Assembly: GCF_024643285.1 (NCBI RefSeq)
Contig: NZ_JAMSLW010000001.1
Span: 865,239 to 929,238, forward strand
DNA: 64,000 nucleotides
Source of the DNA: Parapedobacter lycopersici
Lineage (GTDB): Bacteria; Bacteroidota; Bacteroidia; Sphingobacteriales; Sphingobacteriaceae
Direction: 5' to 3'
The notes under the pieces were generated by a model. The model was given only the letters and a program-made list of their open reading frames with translations, did not search any database and had not been told where the DNA came from. The stretch's first letter is position 1. The number at the start of each line of letters is the position of its first letter. Below, piece after piece: positions 450 to 12,901 of this stretch. The translations under genes and the position numbers were made by a program.

Positions 450-3400
450 ATGAGTAATACCCCGCTACCCATCCCGCGCAAAAATATCCTGATCACGGCT
501 GCCGTTGCGGCGGTGGTCATCGCGGCGGCCATCTTTGCGATATGGAAATACGGCCAGGCCGATACGGTAAACGCCGGCAATACGGCCTTTGCCCAATACA
601 TTGAAGGGTACACTACCGGGGTGATCTCCCGCGAAGGTACGGTGCGGGTACGGCTGGCCACACAGGTCAGCACACTGCACCAGCCCAACCAGGAGGAAAG
701 CCGTAAACTTTTCAACCTGAGCCCTTCGGTCAAGGGCAAAACGTACTGGATAGATGCACGCACCGTTGAATTCCGGCCGGACAAGCCGTTCGAACCCGGA
801 GAGACGTACGTCGCGACCTTCCAGTTGGACCAGGTGGCCGATGTCAGCGATGCGCTTAAGCAGTTTACGTTTGATTTTAAGATCATTGCACCATCCTACC
901 GCGTCGAATTCGACGGCCTGAAAGCACAGACCGGCAACTCGACCGACCGGATGAAATTTACGGGAACAGTACTGCTTGCGGATGTGGAGGAACCGGCAGC
1001 GGTCGAGAAAATCGTAAACGCAACCTATGGAGGCAAAGCAACGGCCATCAGCTGGCAGCACCAGCCCGGGTCGCGTACCGCGACATTCACGATTGATTCC
1101 CTTGCCCGCGGCAAACAGGCCACCAAGCTGACGCTGGCAATCGACGGCCGGCCGATAAGGTCAGAAAAGCAAAGCAAAAAGGAAATTGAAGTACCCCGGC
1201 TGGGCGATTTCAAGGTACTGGATGTCCGTGCCGTGCACGAGCCTGAACAGTATGTATTGGTCCAATTTTCCGATCCCCTGCTGGTTGCCCAGAACCTCGA
1301 CGGCCTCATCCAGATCAGTGAAACGAATGACACCCGCTATACCATTGACGGCAGTGAGGTAAAAGTATATGCGCCTGATTTACTGGAAGGCAGTTATTCC
1401 ATTGCCATCAACGAAGGGGTGGAAAACATCAATTCCCAGAAAATCAGCACGGCTTATGCGGCCAACGTAAATTTCGAGAACAGGCTGCCCGCGGTAAGCA
1501 TACCGGGTATGGGTACCATACTGCCGGGCTCCGACCGCCTGACCATGCCCTTTGAAGCAGTCAACCTGCGGGCGGTGGACGTAACCATTGTCAAAATCTT
1601 TGAAAACAACGTGCCGCAGTATTTCCAAAACACCTACGACAGCAAATACGAATTACGCAGGGTCGCCAAACCCGTGGTACAGACAACCATCGCACTTGAC
1701 ACCGACAAGAGTGTCAACCTGCGGCGCAAAAACCGGTTTTCTCTGGATATCGATCACCTCCTTAAAACGGAACCGGGAGCTATCTACCGGGTGCTTATCG
1801 GTTTCAGGCAAAGCTATTCCGTCTATCCCTGCAGCGATCAGGATATGGAGGCTATCCGGGAGGCAGAGGAAGCGTATCAGGGCAGCTATTATGCCGATAA
1901 TATTGATGAAGACGACGAATTCTGGGCACGCTATAACAGCTATTATCCATACGATTACGATTGGGATGAACGCGACAACCCCTGCCACAGCTCCTATTAT
2001 ACGACGGATCGATGGGCCAGCCGCGACATGCTGGCATCCAATATCGGCCTGATCGTCAAGGGGGGCAACGACAACAGCATGACCGTGGTTGCAACGGATA
2101 TCCTCACGGCACAGCCGATGGCAGGCGTCGAAGTCAAGGTGCTCGACTACCAGCAGCAGGTCATCCAGACGGCAACCACCGATAACGAAGGTTTTGCACG
2201 GTTCGACGTATCCCGCAAGCCATTCATGCTGATTGCTTCCCGCGGGGAGGAACGGGGTTACCTTAAGTTAGATGATGGTGCCGCACTTCCCCTCAGCCGG
2301 TTCGATGTAGGGGGCGATATTGTACAGAAAGGCATCAAAGGCTTTATTTACGGCGAGCGCGGGGTATGGCGACCGGGTGATTCACTATATATCGGATTTA
2401 TCATGGAAGATCTTTCGGCTAACTTACCCGAAGGGCATCCGGTTACCTTTGAACTGTATAACCCCAAGGGACAATTGAGTAAACGCCTTGTCGAATCCAA
2501 ACATACCAACGGATTTTACACCTTCCAAACCAACACCGAAAGCACCGCCCCCACCGGCAATTGGCTGGCCAAGATCAATGTGGGCGGCGCAACATTCCAG
2601 AAAACACTGAAAATTGAAACGGTAATGCCCAATCGGCTTAAACTCACGCTCGATTTCGGCAATAAAAAAATACTGGGCAGGGGCACCGATACCAATATCG
2701 GCTTATCGGCAAACTGGCTGTTCGGCGCCAGCGGCCGGAACCTGAAAGCCCGTGTGGAGGCCACGGTATCGCCCATGAAAACGGAGTTTCCGGATTTCAA
2801 ATCGTATACGTTTGACGATCCCACACGTGCTTACGCGACGGAAAGCCAGGTACTGTTCGACGGCACCCTGAATGAACAGGGAAAGGCTGCGTTCTCTTCG
2901 GATATCTCGGCCGTCAATAACGCACCGGGCATGCTGCGCGCCAGTTTCACCACGCGGGTGTTCGAGCCGGGCGGCAATTTCAGTATCGACAACGTGAGCA
3001 TGCCTTACAGTCCGTACAACAGCTATGTCGGCATCCGTACCCCCGAGGGCGACCGCCTGTCGGGCATGCTGCTCACCGATAAGGACCATGAGGTAAGTAT
3101 TGTCATTGCAGACGCTAACGGCAAGCGGATCAGTGGAAACCGGAACGTGCAGGTCGAGTTTTACAAGATCCGCTGGCAGTGGTGGTGGAACCAGGAAGGA
3201 GAATACCTGGGCAATTTCACACAGGACAAATACAACCAGCTGCTCAAAAAGGAAACCATTACTGTACGGAATGGAGCCGGTAAATGGAACCTCCGCGTCA
3301 ACTATCCGGACTGGGGGCGCTACCTGATCCGCGTGGTAGACCCCGAGAGCGGACACGCGTCCGGCAAGACACTGTATGTCGACTGGCCCGGATGGGCACA

Positions 3401-6047
3401 GCGCGAACAGCAGAACAATCCTACGGAAGCTTCCATGCTTTCATTCACATCGGACAAGGCGCAATACCAAGTGGGCGACGAGGTAACCCTGACCATCCCT
3501 TCATCTGAAGGGGGGCGCGGACTGATCAGTCTCGAAAATGGCAGCCGGGTACTCCGGAGCTGGTGGATCGACACCAAACAGGGACAAACGATACACCGGT
3601 TCAAGGTGGAAGAAGCCATGGCCCCCAACCTGTTTGTAAACGTGACCCTGCTGCAGCCGCATGCACAGACTGCAAATGACCTTCCGATCCGGATGTACGG
3701 CGTGATACCGCTGATTGTGGAAAACCCGAAAACCCAGCTGAAACCCCGGATCGATATCGCGGAAACACTACGCCCGGAAACAAAATCAAACATCACAGTA
3801 ACGGAAACGGGGGGCAAGGCCATGACCTATACCATCGCGATTGTAGACGAAGGGTTGCTTGACCTCACGCGGTTTAAGACACCCGATCCGCATGCGAGCT
3901 TTTACGCCCGCGAGGCACTGGGTGTAAAATCGTGGGATCTGTTCGATCAGGTCATCGGGGCATGGGGCGGCGACCTGGAGCGGATTCTCAGTATTGGCGG
4001 TGATGGAGACATCAACCGGAACGTAAATCCGGCGAAAGCCAACCGTTTTAATCCGGTAGTCAAATTCCTGGGCCCTTTCACACTCCGCAAAGGCGGCAAG
4101 AATACCCATGAATTTACACTGCCCCAATATGTCGGATCGGTGCGAGCGATGGTCGTGGCCGGTCAGGACGGGGCCTATGGATTCGCTGAAAAAGCCGTGG
4201 CGGTAAAGAAACCGCTGATGCTGCTGGCTACGCTTCCCCGGGTAGTCGGCCCCGGCGAAACATTCAAACTGCCCCTGACGGTCTTTGCCATGGAAGACCG
4301 CATCAAACAGGTTCAGCTGCAGGTAACCGCCAGTGGCGGCCTGTCAGTTACGGACGCCAACCAAACAGTTTCATTTGCGGAACAGGGTGAAAAAATGGCC
4401 TATGCCACCGTCAGGGCCGGCAACAGCACCGGGGTCGGTAAAATCAGGGCGGTCGCCAAAAGCGGCAATGAAACAGCGGTTTACGAGGTGGAAATTGACA
4501 TCCGTAATCCCAATCCGTTCATTACCGCCGTCAGTGAGTCGACGGTTAAAGGCGGGTCCGACTGGCAACAGGACATTAAGCCGCTGGGACCCGGAAACGG
4601 CAACAGCATGATGGTCGAAGTATCCACACTCCCGCCGATTAACCTGACCAAACGGCTGAGCTACCTGATCCGGTATCCGCACGGCTGCCTCGAACAGGTA
4701 ACGTCGGGCGTATTCCCGCAGCTGATGATCGACCGGCTGACGGCATTGACAGCAGACCAGAAACGTGCGGTGGATCGCAACATCAAAGCCGGTATCAACC
4801 GGATACGGGGATACCAATTGCCCCCGGGCGGATTCGGCTACTGGCCGGGTGCCAGCGATGCCGATGAATGGAGTACGAATTACGCGGGCCACTTCCTCCT
4901 GGAAGCCCAGGACAAGGGATACGCTGTCCCGGCCGGCATGCTCGATGCATGGAAACGGTACCAGCAGCGCATGGCGCAGCAATGGTCGCCCAACCAGTAT
5001 AACTGGCGGGGCGGCGACCTCGTACAGGCCTACCGGCTATACCTGCTTGCCAGGGCCAAAGCACCTGAAATGGGGGCAATGAACCGGCTGAAGGAATTCC
5101 CCTACCTTTCGGACGAAGCCGCCTGGCGCCTGGCTGCGGCATATCAACTGGCGGGCCAGGGCATCGTTGCCGGCCAGATGATCAAAGGCCGGAGCACGTC
5201 ATCCAAACCGTATGACCATGCCGGCTATACGTTCGGGTCGAACCTGCGCGACCAGGCCATGATCCTGGAAACGCTGGAGCTGATGGGCCGGAAACAGGAG
5301 GCGGAGAAGGTACTGCTGGCCGTGGCCGCCAGTCTGGGTAACGAAAGCTGGTACAGCACGCAGACCACTGCCTATGCCCTGCTGGCCATTGCCAAATTCG
5401 GCGACGGCGCAACCGGCAAAAACAGTTTTACCTATTCACTGAACGGCAAGGATACGCCGGTCGAAATGGAAACATACCTCCATCGGATTACGCTCGATGC
5501 ATCAAACCCGAACAACCGGATAGCCATCCGGAATCCGGGCGACAAGGCGCTGTATATCCGCGTGATCCGCGAAGGCCAGCTGCCCCCGGGTGAAAACCCG
5601 CCGCTGGACAATCATCCCGAACGCCTTTCCATGACGGTACGGTATACCACACCCCAGGGTGAGGTCATTAACCCGGCCCTGCTGACACAGGGCACGGATT
5701 TCGTTGCAGTTGTGACACTCAAAAATACGGGAAACATGGGTACGTATGAACAGCTGGCGCTGACGCAGATTTTCCCTTCCGGATGGGAAATTATCAACAC
5801 CAGGCTCAGCGATAACGATCCGGCATTGCAAAGTGCCCCGGCAACGTACCGCGACATCCGCGACGACCGTGTGCTCACTTATTTCAATATCCGGCAGCAG
5901 GAAACACTGACCTACCGCGTGTTGCTGAATGCGTCCTATACCGGCAGGTATTTTCTGCCACCGGTACATGCAGAAGCCATGTATGACAACCGCATAGGTG
6001 CTTCAACCACCGGCAGCTGGGTAGAGGTAGCGCCCGAACAGCGTTAG
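450..6047 (+). CDS. Bacterial alpha-2-macroglobulin family protein with intact thioester
   Basis: A 1865-residue protein of the bacterial alpha-2-macroglobulin (YfhM-like) family. These periplasmic proteins trap proteases by covalent capture after bait cleavage. A membrane anchor lies at about residues 13-33; there is no lipobox cysteine. MG-type domains, the A2M_N and A2M domains and the thioester domain follow. The thioester motif GCLEQ is intact, with Cys1413, and a YWPGASDADEWSTNYAGHF-type stretch follows in the alpha-alpha toroid. Residues about 460-525 form an unusual Tyr/Asp/Glu-rich insert with two cysteines that could form a disulfide. The usual partner pbpC (PBP1c) is not adjacent. 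The gene converges on ddl with a 4-bp overlap of the stop codons. TACATTCG at 422-429 is one base from the TAnnTTTG element, a weak promoter candidate. Confidence 0.93.
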   Translation: MSNTPLPIPRKNILITAAVAAVVIAAAIFAIWKYGQADTVNAGNTAFAQYIEGYTTGVISREGTVRVRLATQVSTLHQPNQEESRKLFNLSPSVKGKTYWIDARTVEFRPDKPFEPGETYVATFQLDQVADVSDALKQFTFDFKIIAPSYRVEFDGLKAQTGNSTDRMKFTGTVLLADVEEPAAVEKIVNATYGGKATAISWQHQPGSRTATFTIDSLARGKQATKLTLAIDGRPIRSEKQSKKEIEVPRLGDFKVLDVRAVHEPEQYVLVQFSDPLLVAQNLDGLIQISETNDTRYTIDGSEVKVYAPDLLEGSYSIAINEGVENINSQKISTAYAANVNFENRLPAVSIPGMGTILPGSDRLTMPFEAVNLRAVDVTIVKIFENNVPQYFQNTYDSKYELRRVAKPVVQTTIALDTDKSVNLRRKNRFSLDIDHLLKTEPGAIYRVLIGFRQSYSVYPCSDQDMEAIREAEEAYQGSYYADNIDEDDEFWARYNSYYPYDYDWDERDNPCHSSYYTTDRWASRDMLASNIGLIVKGGNDNSMTVVATDILTAQPMAGVEVKVLDYQQQVIQTATTDNEGFARFDVSRKPFMLIASRGEERGYLKLDDGAALPLSRFDVGGDIVQKGIKGFIYGERGVWRPGDSLYIGFIMEDLSANLPEGHPVTFELYNPKGQLSKRLVESKHTNGFYTFQTNTESTAPTGNWLAKINVGGATFQKTLKIETVMPNRLKLTLDFGNKKILGRGTDTNIGLSANWLFGASGRNLKARVEATVSPMKTEFPDFKSYTFDDPTRAYATESQVLFDGTLNEQGKAAFSSDISAVNNAPGMLRASFTTRVFEPGGNFSIDNVSMPYSPYNSYVGIRTPEGDRLSGMLLTDKDHEVSIVIADANGKRISGNRNVQVEFYKIRWQWWWNQEGEYLGNFTQDKYNQLLKKETITVRNGAGKWNLRVNYPDWGRYLIRVVDPESGHASGKTLYVDWPGWAQREQQNNPTEASMLSFTSDKAQYQVGDEVTLTIPSSEGGRGLISLENGSRVLRSWWIDTKQGQTIHRFKVEEAMAPNLFVNVTLLQPHAQTANDLPIRMYGVIPLIVENPKTQLKPRIDIAETLRPETKSNITVTETGGKAMTYTIAIVDEGLLDLTRFKTPDPHASFYAREALGVKSWDLFDQVIGAWGGDLERILSIGGDGDINRNVNPAKANRFNPVVKFLGPFTLRKGGKNTHEFTLPQYVGSVRAMVVAGQDGAYGFAEKAVAVKKPLMLLATLPRVVGPGETFKLPLTVFAMEDRIKQVQLQVTASGGLSVTDANQTVSFAEQGEKMAYATVRAGNSTGVGKIRAVAKSGNETAVYEVEIDIRNPNPFITAVSESTVKGGSDWQQDIKPLGPGNGNSMMVEVSTLPPINLTKRLSYLIRYPHGCLEQVTSGVFPQLMIDRLTALTADQKRAVDRNIKAGINRIRGYQLPPGGFGYWPGASDADEWSTNYAGHFLLEAQDKGYAVPAGMLDAWKRYQQRMAQQWSPNQYNWRGGDLVQAYRLYLLARAKAPEMGAMNRLKEFPYLSDEAAWRLAAAYQLAGQGIVAGQMIKGRSTSSKPYDHAGYTFGSNLRDQAMILETLELMGRKQEAEKVLLAVAASLGNESWYSTQTTAYALLAIAKFGDGATGKNSFTYSLNGKDTPVEMETYLHRITLDASNPNNRIAIRNPGDKALYIRVIREGQLPPGENPPLDNHPERLSMTVRYTTPQGEVINPALLTQGTDFVAVVTLKNTGNMGTYEQLALTQIFPSGWEIINTRLSDNDPALQSAPATYRDIRDDRVLTYFNIRQQETLTYRVLLNASYTGRYFLPPVHAEAMYDNRIGASTTGSWVEVAPEQR

Positions 6048-9506: not shown

Positions 9507-10499
9507 ATGAGCTGGGTACACCGCAATTTACTGAAATTCAAACCCTACTATCAATTTTTGGAGTGGACGAAGGTCGTGGTGCTTCCCGGTTTCGGCTCCC
9601 TCCCGCTGTATACCGTTGCCACCTTTTTTTTTCAGGAAATTGCCCGGGAATCCATCCTCAATAAGGCTTCTTCGCTGGCTTATAATTTTATGCTGGCCAT
9701 TTTTCCGGGAATCATTTTTTTATTTACGCTGATACCGTACATCCCCATCACGAATTTCCAGGAAAAACTGCTTGATTTCATTGAAGTCGTTATGCCCCGC
9801 AATGCCTTCCTTGCTGTAGAGACTACGCTTGAGGACATCGTGCGGAACCAGAACAGTGGGCTGCTGTCGGTAGGTTTTATCCTGGCTACGTTCTTTGCCA
9901 CGAACGGGGTGGGTTCGCTGATGCTTGCCTTCAATAAGGCTTCCCTGGTCAGGGAAAGCCGCAGCTGGGGGCGCCAGCGGGTGGTAGCCATCGGGCTAAC
10001 CATCATGATCATTATTGCATTGGCCATCGGCATGACTATATTTACCGCCGCCGGATATATTATCGGATATCTCCGTGAAAACATCCATATCAATGCGGCT
10101 TTCTGGGGTTTTGTTATTGCCGCTTCACGATGGCTTATCTTATTCGGGATCTACTTTCTTACGGTCAGCATCCTGTATAAATTCGGACCCGCTTCATCGA
10201 GAAGATGGAAATTTTTCAGTCCGGGCGCCATGCTGGCAACCATACTGGCCATCCTTACCTTCTCGGGCTTCGCTTTTTACATCAACCAGTTCGGCGCGTA
10301 TAACAAGCTCTACGGCTCTATCGGTACCCTCATTGTGATCATGATCTGGATTTACCTGAACTCCCTGATCCTACTGGTCGGCTTTGAACTGAATGCCAGC
10401 ATCGCGCTGTCCAAACAGAGCATTAAAATCGTCAAGCCCCGGAATTACAATACATTCAAAGCCAGTCAGCAGGCTGCACAGGAGCATAAAACCAACTAA
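9507..10499 (+). CDS. YihY/BrkB family inner-membrane protein
   Basis: A 330-residue integral membrane protein with about six hydrophobic helices and the YihY/BrkB signature ASSLAYNFMLAIFPGIIFLF near residue 55, FFATNGVGSLMLAFNK near 135, and KFGPASSRRWKFFSPGAMLA near 235. The family was once called ribonuclease BN, which is now known to be wrong; its function is not established. It starts 5 bp after the thioesterase gene and is probably the last gene of the operon that begins with the PASTA gene. A large 11-bp-periodic inverted array begins about 65 bp after the stop codon. Confidence 0.9.
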   Translation: MSWVHRNLLKFKPYYQFLEWTKVVVLPGFGSLPLYTVATFFFQEIARESILNKASSLAYNFMLAIFPGIIFLFTLIPYIPITNFQEKLLDFIEVVMPRNAFLAVETTLEDIVRNQNSGLLSVGFILATFFATNGVGSLMLAFNKASLVRESRSWGRQRVVAIGLTIMIIIALAIGMTIFTAAGYIIGYLRENIHINAAFWGFVIAASRWLILFGIYFLTVSILYKFGPASSRRWKFFSPGAMLATILAILTFSGFAFYINQFGAYNKLYGSIGTLIVIMIWIYLNSLILLVGFELNASIALSKQSIKIVKPRNYNTFKASQQAAQEHKTN

Positions 10500-10563
10500 T
10501 GATGAACAAGGCTACGGACGGTTACTGTCCGTTATTATTTCCAATGGGCTCACCCCGCCGGTA

Positions 10564-10816
10564 TACGGGTATGCATTGACAGGTATTCGGGATTTTTACG
10601 GGATTCCTTCGGGGTTGCCTCGGGACTTGTTCGGCACTTGTTCGAAGCGCTTCGGAATGCAAACGGTTGCACCCGAAGCAGTGTCGAAGCGGAGTCGAAG
10701 CCCGGTCGAAGCCATCCCGAACAAGCGTCGAACAAGTCCCGAAGGAATCCCGAAGCCCCCTCGAACAAGGGTCGAACACTCCCCGAAGCCCAGCCGACAC
10801 CGCGCCGAACAGGCTT
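10564..10816. repeat. Large inverted array of 11-bp degenerate units (TTCG arm / CGAA arm)
   Basis: The right arm has a CGAA core at exactly 11-bp steps from 10674 to 10806: thirteen units, one of which reads CGAC (10795). Most units read YCGAA followed by G or C, then mostly C or A, with variable filler. The left arm carries the reverse-complement core: TTCG, TACG or CTCG at 10586, 10597, 10608, 10619, 10630 and 10641, again at 11-bp steps. A further core at 10651 is out of step by one base, and a fainter outlier lies at 10564. At the centre, CTTCGG (10650-10655) pairs with CCGAAG (10673-10678) around TGCAA-ACGG-TTGCA (10658-10671). The whole array can therefore fold as a long imperfect hairpin. 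Eleven is not a multiple of three, which argues against coding. I do not recognise it as a named family. Confidence 0.9.
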
Positions 10817-10909
10817 TTATATCGTCACCGGACACCCCCCGAACGGGAATCACCTGTCACAGATTACGAAAAAAACAACGAATAACTACCTAGTAATAAA
10901 ACTTTTTCA

Positions 10910-10917
10910 TACCTTTG
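10910..10917 (+). promoter_or_regulatory. Predicted -7 element of the rpsA promoter
   Basis: TACCTTTG matches TAnnTTTG exactly and lies 41 bp before the rpsA start. No clear TTG sits 19-21 bp upstream, so this is a one-box match. Transcription would begin at about 10923, right at the leader hairpin. Confidence 0.5.
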
Positions 10918-10921
10918 CAGT

Positions 10922-10937
10922 CCCGATAAAAATCGGG
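10922..10937 (+). promoter_or_regulatory. Perfect stem-loop at the 5' end of the predicted rpsA leader
   Basis: CCCGAT (10922-10927) and ATCGGG (10932-10937) form a 6-bp perfect stem with an AAAA loop, followed by AAAGGAG (10938-10944) and 13 nt to the rpsA ATG. The hairpin sits where transcription is predicted to begin. It could stabilise the messenger or be a site for S1 autoregulation; neither is shown by the sequence alone. Confidence 0.45.
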
Positions 10938-10957
10938 AAAAGGAGACAAATCAATTA

Positions 10958-12901
10958 ATGGCAAAAAAACAAGAAGTAGAAAAAGAACTGGCAGCAAAAA
11001 AAGCTGAGCTTCAGGGCGCCGAGGACACCTTGGTGAAAGAACGGGAAGACATCGAATCAGAAGCTGATTCGAATCTGATCGATGAAATCAAATCGACCGC
11101 CTGGAGCACCCCTGATTCCGATTTCGATTGGGAAAAGGACGACAAAGGCTTCAGCAACTACAGCGACGAAGAGCGCTCGAAGTTGGAAGAATTGTACGCA
11201 GGCACATTTAACTCCATCAACAAGGGTGAAATCGTGCAGGGTACCGTGGTATCCATCAACAACAAGGATGTGGTATTGAACATTGGCTTCAAGTCAGACG
11301 GTTTGGTATCGCTTTCCGAGTTCCGCGACACGCCCGATTTAAAAATCGGCGACGCCGTGGATGTGTATGTGGAATCACAGGAAGACGCCAACGGACAGCT
11401 GGTGTTGTCACGCAAGCGGGCAAAAACCCAGAAATCCTGGGAAGAAATCAACGAAGCGCTTGAAAATGATACCATCATTGATGGCTTCGTGAAAAGCCGT
11501 ACCAAAGGTGGCCTGATTGTGGACATCAAAGGTGTGGAAGCATTCCTGCCCGGATCACAGATTGACATTAAGCCGATACGCGACTACGATATTTACGTGG
11601 GTAAAACCATGGAGTTCAAAGTGGTCAAAATCAATCACGAATTCAAGAACGTGGTTGTTTCGCATAAAGTACTTATTGAAGACGACCTGGAAAACCAAAA
11701 ATCCGAGATCGTCTCCAAACTTGAAAAAGGACAGGTGCTTGAAGGAACCGTTAAAAACATCACTGATTTCGGTGTGTTCATCGACCTTGGTGGCGTAGAC
11801 GGCCTGTTGCACATTACCGATATTTCATGGGGCCGCATCGAGCATCCGCGTGAGGTATTGGCCCTGGATCAAACCATTAACGTGGTGGTACTGGATTTTG
11901 ACGACGAGAAAAAACGCATTGCACTCGGCCTGAAACAACTTACCGAACATCCTTGGGAATCCCTGGATACCGCATTGGAAATAGGTTCCAAAGTAAAAGG
12001 CAAGATTGTAACGGTAGCCGATTACGGAGCATTCCTCGAAATCACACCGGGTGTGGAAGGATTGATCCACGTATCCGAAATGTCTTGGTCACAAAGCCTC
12101 CGCAGCCCGCAGGAATTCCTGAAAGTGGGCGACGAAGTGGAAGCCGTGATCCTCACACTGGATCGCGATGACCGCAAGATGAGCTTGGGTATCAAACAAT
12201 TGACCCCTGACCCTTGGAAAAACATCGCCGATCGTTACCCCATTGGATCGAAGCAAAAAGCCGTTGTTAAAAACATGACCAACTTCGGTGTGTTTGTAGA
12301 ACTCGAAGAAGGAATCGACGGCCTGATCCACATTTCCGACCTTTCCTGGTCCAAAAAGATCAACCACCCCAATGAGTTCACCAAAGTTGGTGAAGAGCTG
12401 GAAGTGGTCGTATTGGAACTCGACGAGGAAAACCGGAAGCTGAGCCTGGGACACAAGCAGTTGGAGGAAAACCCATGGGATACTTTCGAAACCATTTTCA
12501 CACTGGATTCCATCCATCAGGGAACGGTAATCAAAGTAGGTGAAAAAGGTAACATCGTATCACTGCCCTACGGCGTTGAAGGTTTCTGCCCGGCTAAACA
12601 CAGCGTGAAAGAAGACGGAAGTTCCCTGAAACTGGATGAAACGGCTGATTTTAAAATCATCGAATTCAACAAAGAGAACAAACGTCTGGTGATTTCGCAT
12701 TCCCGCATCTGGGAAGACCAACGCGCCGAAGCACGGATGGAGGATTTCAACAACCGTAAGAAAGAAGCCAAAGCTGCTTCCTCTGCCGTGAAGAAAGTGA
12801 AAGAATCCGTTGAGAAGTCCACTTTGGGCGACCTGGATGTGCTTGCACAGCTGAAAGAGCAGTTGGAAGACGAAGAAAGCGCTAAAAAAGCGAAAAAATA
12901 A
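10958..12901 (+). CDS. rpsA: 30S ribosomal protein S1
   Basis: A 647-residue S1 protein with six S1 RNA-binding repeats, roughly at residues 85-157, 170-240, 255-325, 342-412, 428-500 and 515-585. Repeats 3-5 are the best conserved (for example GVFIDLGGVDGLLHITDISW). An acidic, partly coiled-coil N-terminal extension of about 80 residues and a charged lysine-rich tail complete it, as is usual in Bacteroidota, where the protein is longer than the 557 residues of E. coli. It recruits mRNA to the 30S subunit. An AAGGAG about 13 nt before the ATG is one of the few Shine-Dalgarno-like sequences here. It is monocistronic, ended by a strong terminator. Confidence 0.97.
   Translation: MAKKQEVEKELAAKKAELQGAEDTLVKEREDIESEADSNLIDEIKSTAWSTPDSDFDWEKDDKGFSNYSDEERSKLEELYAGTFNSINKGEIVQGTVVSINNKDVVLNIGFKSDGLVSLSEFRDTPDLKIGDAVDVYVESQEDANGQLVLSRKRAKTQKSWEEINEALENDTIIDGFVKSRTKGGLIVDIKGVEAFLPGSQIDIKPIRDYDIYVGKTMEFKVVKINHEFKNVVVSHKVLIEDDLENQKSEIVSKLEKGQVLEGTVKNITDFGVFIDLGGVDGLLHITDISWGRIEHPREVLALDQTINVVVLDFDDEKKRIALGLKQLTEHPWESLDTALEIGSKVKGKIVTVADYGAFLEITPGVEGLIHVSEMSWSQSLRSPQEFLKVGDEVEAVILTLDRDDRKMSLGIKQLTPDPWKNIADRYPIGSKQKAVVKNMTNFGVFVELEEGIDGLIHISDLSWSKKINHPNEFTKVGEELEVVVLELDEENRKLSLGHKQLEENPWDTFETIFTLDSIHQGTVIKVGEKGNIVSLPYGVEGFCPAKHSVKEDGSSLKLDETADFKIIEFNKENKRLVISHSRIWEDQRAEARMEDFNNRKKEAKAASSAVKKVKESVEKSTLGDLDVLAQLKEQLEDEESAKKAKK

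Follow-up and report, generated by a model that had tools for sequence, protein, structure and literature searches.

A dispersed family of inverted arrays with 11-bp phased core words, mostly between genes, in Parapedobacter lycopersici and related Bacteroidota

The window analysed here, a 64,000-nucleotide stretch of a Parapedobacter lycopersici contig, carries two inverted arms of short core words, phased at 11 bp and joined by a central apex, between a putative BrkB gene and a putative rpsA (Table 1). On the right arm, CGAA occupies 12 of the 13 positions at 11-bp steps from 10674 to 10806, with CGAC at 10795, exactly as a preliminary description made from the sequence had reported. The left arm was described as TTCG-type cores in the same step, and here the phase holds but the exactness does not: the in-phase positions from 10586 to 10641 read TTCG, TACG, TTCG, CTCG, TTCG and TTCG (four exact, two variants), and an additional TTCG at 10651 lies one base off the left-arm phase. 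The hairpin noticed in the middle of the array corresponds to the apex at 10650-10678, TTCGGAATGCAAACGGTTGCACCCGAA. The fillers between the cores differ among themselves in sequence. Chance does not produce such phasing readily: the longest exact CGAA run at step 11 comprises 11 units versus a maximum of 2 in 20,000 mononucleotide shuffles, and a three-unit pattern has nine matches in the window versus none in 100 dinucleotide shuffles. When 15 lags were scanned across the window without reference to any core, lags 11 and 22 alone gave hits at threshold 0.5.

Table 1. Features of the array locus, with positions in the window
Feature	Positions	Strand	Basis
Upstream gene, putative BrkB (name from the preliminary description)	9507..10499	+	ORF; orthologues in 9/9 genus genomes, own included
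Terminator-like hairpin, 3' of the upstream gene and 5' of the array	10513..10534	+	Folded, -10.6 kcal/mol; tail TTATTTCCA
Left (inverted) arm; TTCG-type cores spaced 11 bp apart, 10586-10641	10586..10645	-	4/6 exact; aligns with other copies
Apex/dyad TTCGGAAT-GCAA-ACGG-TTGC-ACCCGAA, joining both arms	10651..10677		GCAA-N4-TTGC apex in 17/21 genome loci
Right arm; 13 YCGAA-N6 units spaced exactly 11 bp apart, one with CGAC	10673..10815	+	Sequence
TACCTTTG, match to TAnnTTTG, between the array and rpsA	10910..10917	+	Motif match
Downstream gene, putative rpsA (name from the preliminary description and by eye)	10958..12901	+	ORF; orthologues in 9/9 genus genomes, own included

At least 21 such loci, the window included, are present in the 3.6-Mb genome, a lower bound drawn from the listed two-armed places, arm starts and arm ends. 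Genome-wide, the four-unit YCGAA-N6 pattern matches at 75 forward and 96 reverse places, and its backward reading matches nowhere; the looser patterns used for listing arm ends gave 12 and 16 real matches versus two in each reversed control. The arrays span about 80-250 bp, and their neighbouring genes, named by eye, include rpsA, rplC, rimP, ileS, metA, gdhA and yqgE, a diversity of neighbours over at least 21 loci that speaks against the originally suggested role tied to rpsA. Copies within the genome share sequence along much of the element, and the GCAA-N4-TTGC apex is lacking at four loci (L036, L042, L044 and L220). Twelve apex copies align across 171 columns with one single-base insertion in total, and their 105 right-arm units comprise 72 distinct 11-mers, a count to which two copies contribute one unit each owing to the register setting of the script. 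An extra GCGGAGTCGAA word lies immediately outside one array (L034, near 4140-4160), and the same word is found again in several arrays.

Across the family, 49 of 301 genomes, counting this one, carry the five-unit pattern; they cover 5 of 25 genera, and no reversed-control match is among the rows listed; in a draw of 60 genomes of relatives, seven carried it, own included, and the outgroup genome G048 gave three reversed-control matches. The search for 11-bp YCGAA arrays that the preliminary description had proposed therefore returned copies both in the same genome and in relatives, and the absence of any other phased array, which it had named as evidence against its reading, did not occur. 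A species collection yielded at least 112 matching stretches, and the matches listed, assigned to taxa by hand from record titles, fall into 27 from Sphingobacteriaceae, 46 from other Bacteroidota and 39 from outside the phylum. Among these listed matches, mean filler identity is 0.41 in Sphingobacteriaceae, 0.68 in other Bacteroidota and 0.82 in non-Bacteroidota, and an inverted arm accompanies 19/27, 6/46 and 0/39, respectively. The YCGAA-N6 pattern is thus also matched by 11-bp VNTRs in other phyla, but these consist mostly of near-identical units (filler identity below 0.5 in 3 of 39 non-Bacteroidota matches listed); with filler identity below 0.5 in 24 of the 27 Sphingobacteriaceae arrays listed, the present arrays are not VNTRs in that sense. 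Searches of open-access papers listed neither a description of such arrays nor a family name. With many loci, many genomes and no name listed in that literature, the family appears, as had been supposed, to be an undescribed one in Bacteroidota, outside REP/RAYT, Rfam and VNTR memberships.

Core-blind scans of other genomes gave less distinct signals. At threshold 0.5 no lag-11 hit was found in the small samples from G013 (100 kb) and G037 (60 kb), though G037 did give a single hit at lag 22, with several others among lags 7, 14 and 28. In 280 kb of G007, six lag-11 hits at threshold 0.48 compare with up to five at other lags, which is nothing distinct, and at threshold 0.55 a single lag-11 hit equals lags 7, 9, 21 and 24. 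Weak 11-bp phased GTGG words (GTGGCTAATAC) lie near 2850-3010 of locus L232 in this genome and possibly represent a further core family.

Orthologous sites suggest a recent arrival of the YCGAA copies. None of 18 orthologous stretches (six gene starts in each of the genus genomes G001, G004 and G008) holds a YCGAA array, and the rimP anchors, 360-388 bp apart in P. lycopersici, are separated by 32 bp in G004, 46 bp in G008 and 186 bp in G001. With all 18 sites empty and the rimP gap longer here, it was probably the P. lycopersici genome that gained copies. At relatives' sites without YCGAA, TTACC/GGTAA arrays came to light, revealing a second family in Parapedobacter relatives with GGTAA or GGTAT cores, the same 11-bp step and the same inverted layout (L240-L257, L097, L089, L259, L262). 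The GGTAA pattern is found in 6 of 9 genus genomes and is absent from P. lycopersici, and its control had no match. Twenty such arrays were examined, among them five ileS orthologues and a pair of near-copies from a single genome; measured from GGTAA, the closest inverted TACC falls at 9 mod 11 in every one, and some further TACC words in the left arms are out of phase. Two GGTAA copies in G003 have both ends in common and differ in the units between.

Upstream of two genes, GGTAA/GGTAT arrays stand where P. lycopersici has YCGAA: ileS, in 5 of 8 relatives, and rpsA, in 2 of 7, G008 being excluded from the latter by a contig end; the five ileS arrays may descend from one ancestral event. Upstream of rplC, three of eight relatives have degenerate 11-bp signals, and G001 is stronger at another lag. 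The words there (L071, L266, L073) are TCCGG, TCGA and GGGA, perhaps decaying arrays or more core families. At yqgE, metA, gdhA and rimP, no relative has a clear array, and since these are four of the seven own-array sites tested, most sites are not shared. The lag-11 threshold was passed in 11 of 53 relative regions, or 10 after discounting the AT-rich gdhA region of G008; of the other lags, 16 exceeded threshold four times, 7, 14 and 17 once each, and 8, 10, 13, 19 and 20 never. Background upstream regions, taken from G004 and G007 only, passed in 6 of 146 cases versus 10 of 53 (p 0.002, the genomes being related); a single array approached from its two sides accounts for two of the six background hits, and others look AT-rich. 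A tentative and rather unlikely extension is that the arrays form a class of chromosomal boundary elements that keep their architecture and some of their genomic sites by inheritance but exchange the core word, as YCGAA and GGTAA at ileS and rpsA would illustrate. If true, lineages would exchange the DNA-binding protein that reads the arrays, and the arrays would be rewritten along with it.

Comparison of orthologous arrays separates core from filler. In four orthologous pairs (three between the Parapedobacter genomes G005 and G006, one from Sphingobacterium), CGAA changed at 3 of 160 positions versus 45 of 280 at the unit's other seven positions (Fisher p 7e-7), and the sole array indel was exactly 11 bp, one whole unit. 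Fillers in these pairs change faster than flanks (45/280 versus 81/976, the flanks including part of the opposite arm). This count draws on four of the eight pairs run, the remaining four pairing copies from the same genome or species. Taking all eight together, core changes number 3/316 versus 90/553 elsewhere; three pairs have array gaps of 11 columns and five have no array gap. Since the core is kept and the filler is free, selection appears to act on the spaced word; slippage alone would have homogenised the fillers too. The earlier view that spacing and not filler is selected is thus corroborated by the 12-copy alignment and by the core constraint.

The arms are also fixed relative to each other. 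In 42 arm pairs, each side holding three or more exact units (array L190 counted as two pairs, and not all pairs independent, because some are orthologues or within-genome copies), the distance between the final TTCG and the initial CGAA is 12 bp (9 pairs), 13 (19), 44 (5), 55 (3) or 66 (1), with one pair each at 18, 22, 23, 46 and 68; altogether, 28 of the 42 have an offset of 12 or 13 bp, and another 10 have one divisible by 11. The window array, with a distance of 33, falls short of the three-exact-unit filter and lies outside these pairs. Such a near-fixed offset places both arms in mutual register, and, judging from sequence comparison, spacing and mirror layout rather than the full sequence seem to have been kept by evolution.

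With respect to genes, 18 of the 21 loci are clearly intergenic by our reading of the ORFs, and at the other three (L041, L222 and L219) an open frame crosses the array into the following gene; we take the true gene start there to lie 3' of the array, so that these arrays are possibly in leaders. Fifteen loci lie between same-direction genes (14 scored loci plus L223), two between convergent genes (L034, L040) and none between clearly divergent ones, and the orientation of the neighbours is ambiguous at four (L041, L219, L220, L222). Between the array and the downstream gene, TAnnTTTG, which we take to be the Bacteroidota -7 promoter motif, is found at 9 of 14 tandem loci versus 2 of 14 for the reversed motif (Fisher p 0.02). 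This count dropped seven of the 21 loci: the convergent pair, L041 and L222 (array in leader, open frame through), L219 and L220 (ambiguous neighbours) and L223, which is tandem with its left neighbour 595 bp off. A convincing terminator-like hairpin 5' of the array is present in just 2 of the 14 scored loci, the window and L032. Because this hairpin precedes the window array and the rpsA promoter motif comes after it, the array in the window may not be transcribed.

An RNA-level role was considered in the preliminary description as a rod or attenuator, and a structured RNA or bidirectional terminator, whose transcript would form a long rod, accords with the 11 bp per turn of A-form helix and, at L044, with a first core about 7 bp past the stop codon. 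Folding of both transcripts, which had been proposed as a check, gave structures stable against dinucleotide shuffles (plus strand MFE -110 kcal/mol, z -5.8; minus strand -115.5, z -4.8), in part because TTCG faces CGAA; pairing specific to a copy's own arms did not emerge over 17 copies, in which joining a left arm to its own right arm brings no significant average gain in stability over joining it to that of another copy (mean residual -1.4 kcal/mol, z -1.2). Single copies vary both ways: in the window, L033 and L043 the own pair is more stable than 15 of 16 swaps, and in L219 than all 16, and for L031, L035, L041, L221 and L223 14-16 of 16 swaps are at least equally stable. Filler covariation between facing units was not seen at unit offsets -4 to +7 in 12 copies, so compensatory arm changes do not appear overall, and Rfam returned no family for window positions 10300-11100, the best match of 16.5 bits lying beneath the gathering threshold of 60. 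Since the arms of these copies neither covary nor fold better than swapped arms, and the window array lies between a hairpin and a promoter motif, we consider an RNA rod quite improbable. A decayed coding sequence or an ordinary VNTR is less credible by far, close to dismissal: open frames do cross the array and near-perfect 11-mer tandems in unrelated taxa match the same pattern, but 11-bp array indels are not multiples of three, constraint tracks the 11-bp phase and not codons, and the fillers are diverse.

The arrays could instead be a selfish or passive dispersed repeat (MITE- or REP-like), inserted or copied between transcription units where it is least harmful, with the phase maintained by whole-unit gain and loss through slippage. 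The likeness of the own-genome copies along much of the element, the 18 orthologous stretches without YCGAA arrays, the longer rimP gap and the two G003 copies with the same ends around different units all agree with this. Neutral slippage, however, would homogenise the filler, and mean identity among the matches listed is 41% in the 27 from Sphingobacteriaceae versus 82% in the 39 from outside Bacteroidota; core constraint between orthologues and the absence of a Y1/RAYT transposase from the genome likewise weigh against it. Inspection of rimP, ileS and rplC by eye showed no target duplication and no terminal inverted repeat common to the three; a possible outer inverted pair, CTGACCCGG/CCGGGTCAG, is present at rimP and was not seen at ileS or rplC. 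On this evidence we rate a selfish origin as unlikely, though a contender to be taken seriously. Under intrinsic curvature or supercoil buffering, the DNA would be bent or underwound by its own phased AA/TT steps, with no need of a dedicated protein, as has been suggested for A-tract clusters. This draws on the AA at each 11th base in both families (CGAA and GGTAA) and on 10-11 bp A-tract periodicity, a known prokaryotic signal (PMC3940949). Entire core words are kept, not AA alone, and bending does not need an inverted dyad with a fixed offset, which makes this explanation distinctly unlikely in our judgement.

Among the roles originally raised, a scaffold for a putative protein reads best, and we propose, in even balance between confidence and doubt, a phased DNA-protein boundary array nucleated at the dyad. 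The constant word, the constant step, the fixed dyad, the interchangeable core word and the lack of overall arm pairing point to duplex DNA read by a protein that repeats once per turn, and a constant core at a constant helical step, the mark of a phased nucleoprotein array, is what the loci display. The element, dispersed intergenic DNA with two inverted arms of cores once per 11 bp around a central dyad of fixed geometry, would most likely act as DNA: an oligomerising protein with sequence-specific DNA binding would dock on the dyad as a dimer and spread outward along both arms, one protomer per helical turn, to form a nucleoprotein array that is stiff or wrapped. Situated after one transcription unit ends and before the next promoter, such an array would be a boundary, as a supercoil or read-through insulator or an anchoring point. 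We infer the protein, its oligomerisation and the boundary role from this layout. Against the proposal count the unshared state of most sites, the possible single origin of the five ileS arrays, the seven loci dropped from the promoter count, the hairpin at just 2 of 14 loci, the own-arm folding in the window, L033, L043 and L219, the open frames in L041, L222 and L219, and the helical step itself. The preliminary description placed all cores on one face of the DNA at about one helical turn; the near-turn step stands, but relaxed B-DNA has 10.5 bp per turn, and since the 11.0-bp step is not exactly one such turn, the face drifts by about 0.6 turn over 13 cores unless the DNA is underwound. To our knowledge, nucleoid organisation and transcription-unit boundaries are little studied in Bacteroidota. 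A DNA element whose identity lies in its spacing and symmetry, and which can use at least two core words interchangeably, would represent a novel type of cis-acting element on the chromosome.

Several known systems resemble the arrays in part. Iterons and type II partition centromeres (for example ParR/parC of plasmid R1) are short direct repeats about one turn apart that are cooperatively bound, and by their short helically spaced repeats the arrays may be likened to them in mode, a parallel for which searches of open-access papers returned no paper. Unlike these, the arrays occur in at least 21 dispersed chromosomal copies with inverted arms and variable filler. Pneumococcal BOX and other modular intergenic repeats have a variable number of central units between conserved parts and share this variability with the arrays; we know of no BOX-type repeat with an 11-bp phase or two interchangeable core families. 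REP/BIME/REPIN elements (GTAG REPs with RAYT, and CGTC REPs) are likewise dispersed, extragenic and inverted between genes, but a REP is a palindrome of 20-40 bp that has a pairing stem and carries a terminal tetranucleotide tag, whereas the arrays are about 80-250 bp of 11-bp units, and their arms do not covary overall. A link to RAYT was rejected: PF01797 is absent from the P. lycopersici genome and found in one of nine genus genomes, G007, which is without the YCGAA five-unit pattern. That sole Y1 transposase match (L239) has stops inside the matched stretch. CGTC REPs, which PMC3733652 reports from Bacteroidetes, apparently without a dedicated transposase, are set apart by size and layout. 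A-tract clusters and the 10-11 bp genome periodicity (PMC3940949) share phasing near the helical repeat and a possible nucleoid role; the arrays differ in being separate elements, each with a dyad and a conserved word of 4-5 bp, not a statistical A/T signal. The family suggests that phased arrays can escape repeat finders relying on sequence identity.

Some arrays recur in particular gene contexts, recognised by eye. The P. lycopersici arrays L041 and L222 each occupy the leader of a large gene; their short upstream frames resemble each other (M-x-Q-x-LLEGEG), and the right flank is common to both. In G005, G006 and G008, several YCGAA arrays (L051, L052, L053, L055, L056, L060) lie in the leader 5' of thioredoxin-like-looking genes, which precede SusC-like genes; an open frame, mostly beginning MKQNLRL or similar, runs through these arrays, and about 260 bp of leader is most closely common to L051, L053, L055 and L056. 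At L049, L054, L057, L058 and L061, arrays lie 5' of a conserved gene starting MAVFKKGINGAFSGTIG or similar, which we take to resemble DUF6266 and which in some loci is followed by a DUF5675-like and a holin-like frame.
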